Assembly: GCF_900113525.1 (NCBI RefSeq)
Contig: NZ_FOPP01000015.1
Span: 1 to 64,000, forward strand
Source of the DNA: Pedobacter insulae
Lineage (GTDB): Bacteria > Bacteroidota > Bacteroidia > Sphingobacteriales > Sphingobacteriaceae
Length of the DNA: 64,000 nucleotides
Reading direction: 5' to 3'
Below, in pieces: positions 43,068 to 47,299 of the stretch (position 1 is the stretch's first letter; every line of letters starts with the position of its first letter). The notes under the pieces were generated by a model. The model did not search any database and had not been told where the DNA came from. It saw nothing but the letters and a program-made list of their open reading frames with translations. Both the position numbers and the translations under genes were made by a program.

Positions 43068-43117
43068 ACTAATTAAATTAGTTTAATGAAAATTAGAATA
43101 CTAATAATATTAGTATT
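43068..43117. promoter_or_regulatory. duplicated operator ACTAAT-N3-ATTAGT before dinB
   Basis: Two copies of the same inverted repeat: ACTAAT-TAA-ATTAGT at 43068-43082 and ACTAAT-AAT-ATTAGT at 43100-43114, the second extending to a 9-bp arm (43097-43117). Their centres are 32 bases apart, about three helical turns. The second one touches the -7 box, so a bound protein would block transcription. This looks like the site of a damage-responsive repressor (inference). Confidence 0.65.
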
Positions 43118-43124
43118 ATATTTG
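43117..43124 (+). promoter_or_regulatory. dinB-dnaE2 promoter, -7 box
   Basis: TATATTTG matches TAnnTTTG. It ends nine bases before the dinB ATG at 43133 and directly follows the second operator copy. Confidence 0.55.
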
Positions 43125-43132
43125 TTTTTATA

Positions 43133-44299
43133 ATGGAGCTTGTCGACAAACATATCATTCATATGGATCAGGATGCATTTTTTGTATCCGTTGAAATTCT
43201 AAAAGATTCTTCGTTAGCGGGTAAACCCGTAATTATTGGAGGGATGTCTGATCGGGGAGTGGTAGCATCATGTAGCTATGAAGCACGTAAATTTGGAATT
43301 CACTCCGCCATGCCAAGTAGAATGGCCCGGCAGCTTTGTCCGCATGCTGTTTTTGTAAAGGGTAGTATGGAAGATTACAGCAAGAAATCTAACGAAATCA
43401 CACAGCTACTCCAAGAGAAGGTACCGGTTATTGAAAAGGCGAGCATCGACGAACATTATATTGATATGACCGGGATGGATAAGTTTTTTGGCTGCATGAA
43501 ATTCGCTCAAGAACTACGAAAGTCCGTTTTAAACGAGATTGGATTACCGATTTCATTTGGTTTGTCGATCAATAAAACGGTGTCTAAAATGGTTACGAAT
43601 GAGTGTAAGCCTAATGGAGAGAAGGAGGTGGCTAAATTGAATGTCCAGCCTTTTCTAAATCCATTATCTATTAAAAAAATACCCGGATTAGGGAATGCCA
43701 CATTTATTAAGCTAAGTGAAATGGGTGTTAGAAAAATCCATACTTTAACTCAAATTCCACATGATTTAATGTTTAAGATACTAGGTCAAAATGGTTTAAG
43801 TCTTTGGCAGAAAGCGAATGGGATAGACAATTCGCCGGTCATTCCTTACCGCGAACAAAAGTCTATTGGCAAACAAACCACATTCGATAGCGATAGCATG
43901 GATATTTCGGGCATGAAAATTATTTTGACCGACATGATTACAAAACTTGCTTTTGAACTTCGCCAGAAACAAAGGCTTACTGCTTGCATTACAGTAACTA
44001 TTAGATATGCCAATTTTGAAACCGTGACACAGCAAGCAAAAATTCCATATACCTCCCTCGATACCGTTTTAATTCTAAAGGCAAAAGAACTCTTTGATAA
44101 ATTGTATTCAAAGAGGATGCTTTTACGGTTAGTGGGTGTAAAGCTTTCTCATTTGGTTTGTGGATATGAGCAAGTTGGCTTATATGGACCGTCTGAGAAG
44201 ATTTATAACCTTTATCAAAGTATGGATAAAATGCGTTCAAGATATGGCGTTGATGCGATTAAACTAGCCACCGTTCTACCGTCAAAACTACGTCACTAG
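43133..44299 (+). CDS. dinB: Y-family DNA polymerase (DinB-like)
   Basis: 388 residues. Catalytic carboxylates are present: Asp in HMDQDAFFVSVE and the Asp-Glu pair in ASIDEHYIDMTG. The palm and thumb are followed by a little-finger domain (from about 240). SIDEHYID differs from the more common SIDEAYLD. It is followed six bases later by a short DnaE-type polymerase, the arrangement of an inducible mutagenesis cassette in which the Y-family member may act with DnaE2. The duplicated operator upstream supports damage control. No LexA-like gene is next to it. Confidence 0.9.
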   Translation: MELVDKHIIHMDQDAFFVSVEILKDSSLAGKPVIIGGMSDRGVVASCSYEARKFGIHSAMPSRMARQLCPHAVFVKGSMEDYSKKSNEITQLLQEKVPVIEKASIDEHYIDMTGMDKFFGCMKFAQELRKSVLNEIGLPISFGLSINKTVSKMVTNECKPNGEKEVAKLNVQPFLNPLSIKKIPGLGNATFIKLSEMGVRKIHTLTQIPHDLMFKILGQNGLSLWQKANGIDNSPVIPYREQKSIGKQTTFDSDSMDISGMKIILTDMITKLAFELRQKQRLTACITVTIRYANFETVTQQAKIPYTSLDTVLILKAKELFDKLYSKRMLLRLVGVKLSHLVCGYEQVGLYGPSEKIYNLYQSMDKMRSRYGVDAIKLATVLPSKLRH

Positions 44300-44305
44300 C
44301 AAATC

Positions 44306-47299
44306 ATGTTTCTCAATATTCACTCCCAATACAGCTTGCGTTATGGCACTATGGATATCAAAACTTTGATAGCAGAGGCAAGGGAGAAGGGTATTCACGA
44401 AATGGTGTTGACAGATATCAATAATTCCACAGGATGTATGGAGTTTATTCGGCTTTGCAGGAAGGAAGGCATGGATGAGCAAGACGATGCAGGGAACATC
44501 ATCAAGCCTGCGTATTACCTTAAGCCAATTATCGGAATAGAGTTTAGGAGAAATAACCAGCTCTTGTACATCGGCATTGCAAAAAATAAAGAGGGCATGA
44601 GAGCGTTAAATGAGTTTTTGACCTTTCATAATCTTAATCAAATGTCTTTGCCTGATGAGGCACCTCCATTTGTCGATGCCTTTATAGTTTATCCCTATTC
44701 CAAAAGAACAGGTTTAAAAGACAATGAATACCTGGGAATTAGGCCTAATGAGGTTAACAAGATCACTGGTTTATCTTTGATGGGGATGGAAGATAAGTTG
44801 GTGATCCTTCAACCAATAACAGTTAAGAATAGAGTTGAGCATAGGTTACATAAATATCTAAGAGCTATTGGTTTAAGTACGGTTTTAGGAAAGCTGGAGC
44901 CAGGTGATTATTGCGAGCCCGATGAGGTTTTCGTTACTGAGCGCAATATTCAGGAGCGGTTTGAACGATACAATTTTATGATCGCAAATACGAAAAGGCT
45001 TTTAAGTTGCTGCTGTATGGATGATTATACATTTGGCCATAAGAATAAAAAGACCTTCACTGGCAGTACACATGACGACTTATCGCTTTTAACCAAATTA
45101 GCAATGGAGGGGAGTACTTATCGTTATGGGATAAATAATAAGGAAGCCATTGTAAGAATAAAAAAAGAACTTAAAGTAATTGCCGAACTCAATTTCTGCG
45201 CCTACTTTTTGATTACCTGGGATATCGTAAATTATGCCATGAGCAAAGGTTATTATCATGTTGGCAGGGGCTCTGGCGCCAATAGCATCGTCGCATACTG
45301 TCTCAAAATAACGGATGTAGACCCGATTGACTTAGACTTGTATTTTGAACGTTTTTTAAATCACAAGCGAAGCTCTCCTCCAGATTTTGATCTCGATTTT
45401 AGTTGGGACGAGCGAGAAGATGTCCAGGACTATATATTTAAACGTTATCAAGGAGCAAATACTGCGCTTTTAGGTACAATGAGTACATTTAAAGACAATG
45501 CCATTATTAGAGAAATTGGCAAGGTAATGGGATTGCCAAAAAGTGAGATTGATAGCTTTACAGATCCTACTAAAAATCAATTGCATGCGAATAATGATGT
45601 TTTTAATAAACTACTGCAGATTAATAGTAGGATGAAAGGAATGCCTAATCAGCGTTCCATCCACGCCGGTGGAATATTGATAAGTGAAGAGCCCTTAAGC
45701 TATTATACCGCATTGGATTTACCTCCAAAAGGAATGCCTACTGTACAATGGGATATGTATGAAGCAGAATTAATTGGTTTGGATAAATTTGATATTCTTA
45801 GTCAGCGAGGAATTGGACATATTAAAGAGGCCGTGCAACTCGTGTTGAAAAACAAGAAAGAGAAAGTAGATATCCATGATTTTAAGTCATTTAAGACCGA
45901 CCCTAAACTCAATTCTCAATTAAGGGCAGGTACGCCAATTGGATGCTTTTATATTGAATCACCTGCGATGCGTCAGCTACTTAAGAAATTGCTTTGTGAA
46001 GATTACCTAACCCTTGTTGCGGCGAGTTCTATCATCAGGCCTGGAGTAGCCAGTTCAGGGATGATGAAAATGTATATCCAGAGTTATCATAGCCCGGATA
46101 AGGTGCAATATCTTCACCCAGTTATGAAGGAACAGCTAGCAGAAACTTTTGGTGTAATGGTGTATCAGGAAGATGTGATTAAGATTTGTCACCATTATGC
46201 GGGGCTTGACATGGCAGATGCCGATATTTTACGTAGGGGTATGAGCGGTAAATATCGAGCTAAGATTGAGTTCGATAAACTCGTAGCTCGATTCTTTGAT
46301 AAAGCCAAAGAGAAAGGCAGAGATGAAAAGATTACCAAGGAAGTGTGGCGACAAGTATCCAGTTTCGCAGGTTATAGCTTTTCAAAAGCGCATTCGGCTA
46401 GTTTTGCAGTAGAAAGCTATCAGAGCTTATATCTAAAAACGTATTACCCGATGGAATTTATGGTTGCTGTTTTGAATAACTATGGGGGATTCTATCAACG
46501 TTGGGTGTACGTGCATGCTTTGCAGCAAACTGGAGCGAAGGTGCACTTGCCTTGTGTAAATCGCAGCGATAGTGTGGTAAATATTAAAAAAACGGAAGTC
46601 TATTTGGGTCTGATCGGTATTCAGGGTTTGGAAAATAGCCTAATTGAAATCATTCCAAATGAACGCAAAGAAAATGGTAACTATCGCGATTTGGAAGATT
46701 TAATTAGGCGCACCCAACTTGCTTTAGAACAAGCTGTTATTCTTATTCGCGTAGGCGCATTAAGGTTCACTGGAAAGGATAAAAAGGAATTGCTTTGGGA
46801 GATTCATAATTACTTGGGTAATAAGACAAAAGTAGTGAGCGACAAAATGTTATTCCATTTTCCTCCTAAAGAGTATGTACTTCCAGATTTGGAAAACAAC
46901 ATGATTGAGGATGCTTACCAAGAATTGGAATTACTAGGGTTTCCCATTACTTTAACGATGTTCGATCTGCTTAAAACAAGTTACCGGGGCGATGTATTTG
47001 CTAAGGATTTAGAACAATATCAAGGCAAAGTTGTAAAGATGCTTGGGAATTTTGTTTGTGATAAAACTGTAAATACGGTAAAAAATACCAAGATGTGGTT
47101 TGGAACGTTTATCGATAGTCAGGGCAATTTTTTTGACACCACACACTTTCCAACTTCAAGTCCCGCTTACCCGTTTAGAGGCAAGGGCTGTTATTTAATT
47201 TTAGGTACAGTTGTGCTAGATTTTGGGGTACCTAGCATTGAGGTGATGAAGTTTGCCAAATTACCGATTATAGATAATCCTGTGTTAATAACAAAATAA
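44306..47299 (+). CDS. dnaE2: DNA polymerase III alpha subunit, short error-prone type (DnaE2-like)
   Basis: 997 residues, clearly shorter than a replicative DnaE. PHP domain at the N-terminus (FLNIHSQYSLRYGTM), C-family palm with SPPDFDLDFSW holding catalytic aspartates, GRGSGANSIVAYCL, NQRSIHAGGI and the SFAGYSFSKAHSASFA segment, then a C-terminal OB-type part. It follows dinB by six bases. In many bacteria DnaE2 works with ImuB-type Y polymerases in translesion synthesis; direct partnership here is inferred from the operon. Assignment as DnaE2 rather than the replicase rests on length and context. Confidence 0.85.
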   Translation: MFLNIHSQYSLRYGTMDIKTLIAEAREKGIHEMVLTDINNSTGCMEFIRLCRKEGMDEQDDAGNIIKPAYYLKPIIGIEFRRNNQLLYIGIAKNKEGMRALNEFLTFHNLNQMSLPDEAPPFVDAFIVYPYSKRTGLKDNEYLGIRPNEVNKITGLSLMGMEDKLVILQPITVKNRVEHRLHKYLRAIGLSTVLGKLEPGDYCEPDEVFVTERNIQERFERYNFMIANTKRLLSCCCMDDYTFGHKNKKTFTGSTHDDLSLLTKLAMEGSTYRYGINNKEAIVRIKKELKVIAELNFCAYFLITWDIVNYAMSKGYYHVGRGSGANSIVAYCLKITDVDPIDLDLYFERFLNHKRSSPPDFDLDFSWDEREDVQDYIFKRYQGANTALLGTMSTFKDNAIIREIGKVMGLPKSEIDSFTDPTKNQLHANNDVFNKLLQINSRMKGMPNQRSIHAGGILISEEPLSYYTALDLPPKGMPTVQWDMYEAELIGLDKFDILSQRGIGHIKEAVQLVLKNKKEKVDIHDFKSFKTDPKLNSQLRAGTPIGCFYIESPAMRQLLKKLLCEDYLTLVAASSIIRPGVASSGMMKMYIQSYHSPDKVQYLHPVMKEQLAETFGVMVYQEDVIKICHHYAGLDMADADILRRGMSGKYRAKIEFDKLVARFFDKAKEKGRDEKITKEVWRQVSSFAGYSFSKAHSASFAVESYQSLYLKTYYPMEFMVAVLNNYGGFYQRWVYVHALQQTGAKVHLPCVNRSDSVVNIKKTEVYLGLIGIQGLENSLIEIIPNERKENGNYRDLEDLIRRTQLALEQAVILIRVGALRFTGKDKKELLWEIHNYLGNKTKVVSDKMLFHFPPKEYVLPDLENNMIEDAYQELELLGFPITLTMFDLLKTSYRGDVFAKDLEQYQGKVVKMLGNFVCDKTVNTVKNTKMWFGTFIDSQGNFFDTTHFPTSSPAYPFRGKGCYLILGTVVLDFGVPSIEVMKFAKLPIIDNPVLITK

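Follow-up and report, generated by a model that had tools for sequence, protein, structure and literature searches.

A dinB-dnaE gene pair of Pedobacter insulae is very probably an SOS-controlled operon for translesion synthesis, under a CI-like S24 repressor encoded on contig 10. The pair lies in the window, our name for the whole 64,000-nucleotide stretch of DNA analysed, behind two sites that match the published SOS operator of Bacteroidetes, which makes the cassette a well-supported member of a known system. In that system a CI-like S24 protein, the "non-canonical LexA", binds CTAA-N5-TTAG, as was shown by gel shift, by mutation of the site and by induction with mitomycin C (Sanchez-Osuna et al. 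2021, PMC8565304, as far as its text was accessible). That paper already reports both the operator and the class of repressor for the phylum, a connection that the initial annotation of this DNA lacked. Our evidence, all at the level of sequence, comes from the operators and promoter geometry, the operon, the motifs and own-promoter sites of the repressor, the co-regulated genes, and conservation in relatives.

The distal operator, ACTAATTAAATTAGT, occupies positions 43068..43082 and the proximal operator, ACTAATAATATTAGT, positions 43100..43114; both are exact matches, with no strand assigned. Each is a perfect 15-bp palindrome, ACTAAT-N3-ATTAGT, of the CTAA-N5-TTAG type, and their starts are 32 bp apart. 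Two bases 3' of the proximal operator, at 43117..43124 on the forward strand, the sequence reads TATATTTG, a TAnnTTTG -7 box, which we take to be a Bacteroidetes-type promoter element. The initial annotation had described two copies of the palindrome 32 bases apart, the second adjoining a -7 box; this was correct to the base, and all coordinates hold. The two sites before dinB are the only exact instances of ACTAAT-N3-ATTAGT in the window. The operator core is CTAA-N5-TTAG, and the flanking A and T letters are the dinB promoter's own version of it. Eight bases separate the end of the -7 box from the dinB ATG (43117-43133), a distance that might leave the dinB transcript with almost no leader; in relatives L028-L034 this gap is 9 to 11 bases.

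The first gene of the operon (43133..44299, forward strand) encodes a 388-aa Y-family DNA polymerase of the DinB type, matching Pfam IMS (1.5e-45) and IMS_C (6.1e-21) and NCBIfam PRK02406, DNA polymerase IV (289.9 bits, cut-off 256). Six bases on, with no ORF between, follows a second, short DnaE of 997 aa (44306..47299, forward strand), with Pfam matches to DNA_pol3_alpha (8.6e-66), its finger domain (2e-35), HHH_6 and PHP, so that the reading of the cassette as dinB followed six bases later by a short DnaE is borne out. The arrangement is widespread: of 80 related loci, 78 have a DnaE relative 3' of dinB, and for 58 of these the gap is estimated at 11 bases or fewer. Two C-family polymerases were found in the genome, this DnaE and one in a 1511-aa frame. 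The window DnaE appears by context to be error-prone and DnaE2-like, but it falls below the NCBIfam cut-off for PRK05672, error-prone polymerase (446 vs 939 bits), which speaks against a ready DnaE2 label. The genome's other Y-family gene (L258) has no CTAA-N5-TTAG in the 200 bp upstream of it. The tail of DinB resembles the N-terminus of the organism's own RecA, with a score of 39 that was reached by 2 of 2000 shuffles. The best RecA-like match falls in the DinB tail in 78/80 relatives, and the tail beats at least 99% of 200 shuffles in 61/80; in 19/80 it does not.

Conservation of the promoter was followed in 81 upstream regions, the window plus the best 80 of 175 dinB relatives; each region spans 200 bp, counted back from where the tblastn match begins, which may be as many as 15 bases into the gene. 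The seven closest relatives found are all Pedobacter, at 84-89% identity. CTAA-N5-TTAG was present in 81/81 regions, twice or more in 52, and the stricter RCTAA-N5-TTAGY in 80. Of six control patterns with the same layout, five occurred in 0/81 regions and one, AT-rich, in 1/81. The motif was found 134 times in 16.2 kb of upstream sequence and 13 times in the remaining 756 kb of the related dinB loci, a density about 480 times higher upstream. A single exact site was seen in 29/81 regions, indicating that an operator pair is not obligatory. TAnnTTTG occurred in 76/81 regions, in 74 of them close to the end of an operator, and 69 operator-box pairings had an offset of 0, 2 or 3 bases; the control words GTTTnnAT and ATnnAAAC were found in 11/80 and 27/80. 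In the eight closest relatives inspected, the proximal operator and the -7 box were kept and the sequence between the operators varied. An operator next to the -7 box is the promoter rule that comes out of this analysis. In 5/80 of the dinB loci gyrA lies downstream within the fetched flank.

Genome-wide counts look different for the exact and the loose forms of the motif. A dinucleotide model derived from the window predicts 0.011 exact 15-mers per 64 kb and 0.74 for the 4.39-Mb genome (21 contigs). Three were found in the genome: the two before dinB and a third at C9:3455, 33 bp from which lies a partner with one mismatch. Counts of CTAA-N5-TTAG were 111 vs 147 for its reversed control and 130 by the model, those of RCTAA-N5-TTAGY 38 vs 29 and 32, and those of the 15-mer with at most one mismatch 32 vs 37. 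In the window itself, the 15-mer with at most two mismatches occurs 11 times vs a shuffled mean of 6.9. Against the reversed control and the model, these genome counts reveal no clear enrichment of the loose motif. The loose forms are near chance level genome-wide, and it is position and conservation that carry the case. The initial annotation had proposed a whole-genome scan, with random positions of the motif speaking against a damage regulon; random placement does describe the loose motif, 22 of the 38 strict RCTAA-N5-TTAGY sites lying within some ORF of at least 60 aa, but it does not describe the conserved promoter sites.

The repressor was expected to be encoded elsewhere, no LexA-type gene being adjacent to the cassette. 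A search of the genome for the S24 family gave one gene on contig 10, one on contig 11 and none in the window; likewise, the flanks fetched around the 80 dinB loci contained no relative of the organism's own repressor by tblastn. The contig 10 gene (C10:190699-191472, minus strand) encodes a predicted CI-like S24 repressor of 258 aa, with matches to HTH_3 (PF01381, 5.3e-15) and S24 (3.1e-6). All 30 aligned repressor sequences, its own included, share the segments KASAGYLNG, GDSMLP and VYKR without a change. We take these segments, partly by analogy with LexA, to hold the cleavage bond and the catalytic pair. An Ala-Gly bond with a Ser/Lys pair is what the family description of the non-canonical LexA gives, in the accessible text of PMC8565304. 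The initial annotation had suggested looking for an S24-type repressor whose promoter carries the site; the contig 10 gene is just that, with two CTAA-N5-TTAG sites in its promoter, at C10:191503 and C10:191568. A match to the repressor is present in at least 143 of 151 genomes of the family, and in the promoters of 30 matching genomes the site precedes the repressor gene in 30/30, its own included. In this and the other promoter sets, recA among them, gene starts were extrapolated from tblastn, and no control pattern occurred in more than one region of any set. Divergent from the repressor gene, and with the operator region in common, is a small GIY-YIG-like ORF of 116 aa (G000:C10, L147 1207-1557, forward strand), whose Pfam match is below the cut-off. 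Several genomes of the family have a second, diverged relative of the S24 repressor at 38-40% identity (six among the matches listed, e.g. G093:C78:33030-33803), which may bind another motif.

Outside ORFs lie 16 of the 38 strict sites, a raw share without a control-pattern counterpart. Two of these precede dinB and another two a DinB/YfiT-family gene; single sites precede the repressor gene, recA, an exonuclease/GIY-YIG gene (RNase_T 5.6e-33, GIY-YIG 3.1e-7), a PA0069-family radical SAM gene (507 bits, cut-off 360) and a 108-aa ORF. The recA site recurs in 27/27 genomes read, its own included. The other seven sites precede genes without a clear damage link, including RibD_C and Fur types, a CoiA-like ORF below the Pfam cut-off and, by eye, a response regulator, ksgA and two others; these seven may be chance occurrences. 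Presence of the motif before the repressor, recA, radical SAM, exonuclease/GIY-YIG and dinB-dnaE genes argues for the earlier proposal that it defines a damage regulon, as judged from sequence. Spacings between operators are gene-specific, at 27-54 for dinB, 33 for DinB/YfiT, 64-66 for the repressor and 81-83 for recA. Helical phasing of paired operators, as in CI-like cooperative binding, was unsupported for periods of 10 to 11 bp (Rayleigh test, p about 0.3 to 0.6, with the spacings put by us into ten classes).

These genes agree well with the regulon described in the accessible text of PMC8565304, the paper we found on CTAA-N5-TTAG. Targets named there include the repressor's own gene, recA, dinB, splB and a GIY-YIG exonuclease; several promoters contain more than one site, and Sphingobacteriaceae are among the families with large regulons. 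Shared with that system are the operator core, an S24 repressor with a CI-type HTH and the cleavage residues, autoregulation, the recA, dinB, splB-type radical SAM and GIY-YIG exonuclease targets, and multiple sites per promoter. One difference from its text is that dinB-dnaE is here under CTAA-N5-TTAG; there a dinB-dnaE operon is placed under the sister motif GGA-N5-TCC, and imuA-imuB-dnaE2 under CTAA-N5-TTAG. A literature search on Pedobacter, LexA and the SOS response returned only apparently unrelated work, going by titles and the beginnings of abstracts.

The polymerase pair itself also has a published counterpart. Bacteroidetes are described as having an unusual pair of a PolY2-group enzyme and DnaE2, both apparently active, and RecA binding is argued to occur via a tail motif of the Y-family polymerase (Timinskas and Venclovas 2019, PMC6511836, from its accessible text); DnaE2 cores are described as distinctly short in Bacteroidetes (PMC3919608, likewise in part). 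With its RecA-like DinB tail and its short DnaE, the window cassette fits these descriptions. It has, like the PolY2 and DnaE2 pair, an adjacent and apparently active Y-family polymerase and second DnaE, a tail resembling the RecA N-terminus, and an operon in which neither ImuA nor ImuB-C was seen, and the accessible text of PMC6511836 offers no difference between the two.

Three other explanations of the locus were weighed. That the palindromes are functionless chance occurrences in an AT-rich intergenic stretch would accord with the near-chance level of loose matches in the genome, but such a reading is largely contradicted by operators in every one of the 81 dinB regions, against 0 or 1 for six controls, by the roughly 480-fold upstream density and by the near-fixed offset to the -7 box, and we regard it as scarcely credible. 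It is also highly unlikely that the palindromes serve another regulator, either the second S24 protein or a non-S24 factor, while the contig 10 repressor controls something else. The genome does encode that second S24 protein, of 219 aa (L011, contig 11), but it was rejected as the repressor, since a search at E 0.01 gave no HTH domain and the 288 bp upstream of its gene lack CTAA-N5-TTAG; the contig 10 repressor, by contrast, has two sites in its own promoter and belongs to a class that binds the motif, according to the accessible text of PMC8565304.

The remaining explanation takes the locus for an imuA-imuB-dnaE2 cassette of the classic type, whose Y-family member would be catalytically dead. 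The window cassette resembles one in having a damage-type operator before a Y-family gene and in the adjacency of that gene to a second DnaE. It departs from one in having no adjoining imuA, none of the ORFs of at least 80 aa at 38-52 kb appearing imuA-like by eye, and in the state of its polymerase. DinB reads MDQDAFF and SIDEHYID at what we presume to be the places of the catalytic acids in active DinB enzymes, and its catalytic motifs are apparently intact. We consider a dead-polymerase cassette extremely unlikely.

Under the preferred reading, an SOS operon controlled from contig 10, repressor dimers would occupy both CTAA-N5-TTAG operators, of which the proximal one extends to the -7 box, and would block RNA polymerase there. 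DNA damage would give rise to RecA filaments, which would trigger self-cleavage of the repressor at its Ala-Gly bond and its release from the DNA. The Y-family polymerase and DnaE would then be expressed together and copy past lesions, with the tail of the former probably touching RecA. Binding, cleavage and induction by damage are steps that we infer from the published family. Joint action of the two polymerases, a further inferred step, would be without direct precedent here. The earlier idea of an inducible mutagenesis cassette is supported by the sites, the repressor and the shared targets, with inducibility suggested by analogy.

Beyond the published targets, as named in the main text of PMC8565304, the Pedobacter genome apparently adds a DinB/YfiT-family gene and a protein of ~104 aa. 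The former (G000:C9:2907-3404, L003 950-1450, minus strand; PF05163, 6.4e-17) has a twin operator with a spacing of 33 bp. A site was found in 5 of 28 homologues examined, its own included, these being the five best by E-value; in four of the five the sites form pairs 33 bp apart. Two further loci of the original 30 had been dropped for short upstream sequence. Homologues L174 and L176, of similar identity (about 62%), have no site. A Deinococcus DinB/YfiT protein is described as strongly induced under stress (PMC4338110, from its accessible text), and a term search of the main text of PMC8565304 found no COG2318, YfiT or AlkB.

The second addition is an uncharacterised family of ~104 aa, represented here by a 108-aa ORF with a LexA-type site (G000:C13:54938-55261, L156 1239-1562, forward strand). 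Its sequence pattern is MTVTV...IRWR.VNDV, 21 of 30 loci went into its alignment, and the family was found in 60/79 genomes of the genus; Pfam, NCBIfam and PHROGs gave no match at E 0.01. Exact sites occur in 15/30 of its promoters. In a scan without a control, covering 25 of the 30 fetched loci, a site with at most one mismatch was present in 23/25, its own included, and by reading of the output it stood directly beside TAnnTTTG in 21/25. Among 19 of the 30 loci scanned for neighbours, an AlkB-like 2OG-Fe(II) oxygenase gene lies 3' of the ~104-aa gene in L210 and L215 (Pfam 1.3e-30 in L215). In L207 the ~104-aa gene has a place close to that of dinB-dnaE in the window, 260 bases upstream of a gyrA-like ORF. 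The predicted fold is a fair model (mean pLDDT 83.4, pTM 0.73), with no Foldseek match at E 0.001 or better and, in VIA-align, a ribosomal chain as best row (Z 5.5, rmsd 2.6 over 76 residues), so that no function can be read from it. We lean towards counting both genes, the twin-operator DinB/YfiT gene and the ~104-aa protein, as members of the Pedobacter SOS regulon that the main text of PMC8565304 leaves unnamed, in which case the small protein would be a new damage-response factor of the phylum.

A regulatory switch read from raw sequence has proved real and now has its place in a published SOS system, in a phylum long thought to be without one. What is gained is a compact and testable Pedobacter regulon, with a DinB/YfiT gene and a small uncharacterised protein among its putative members.
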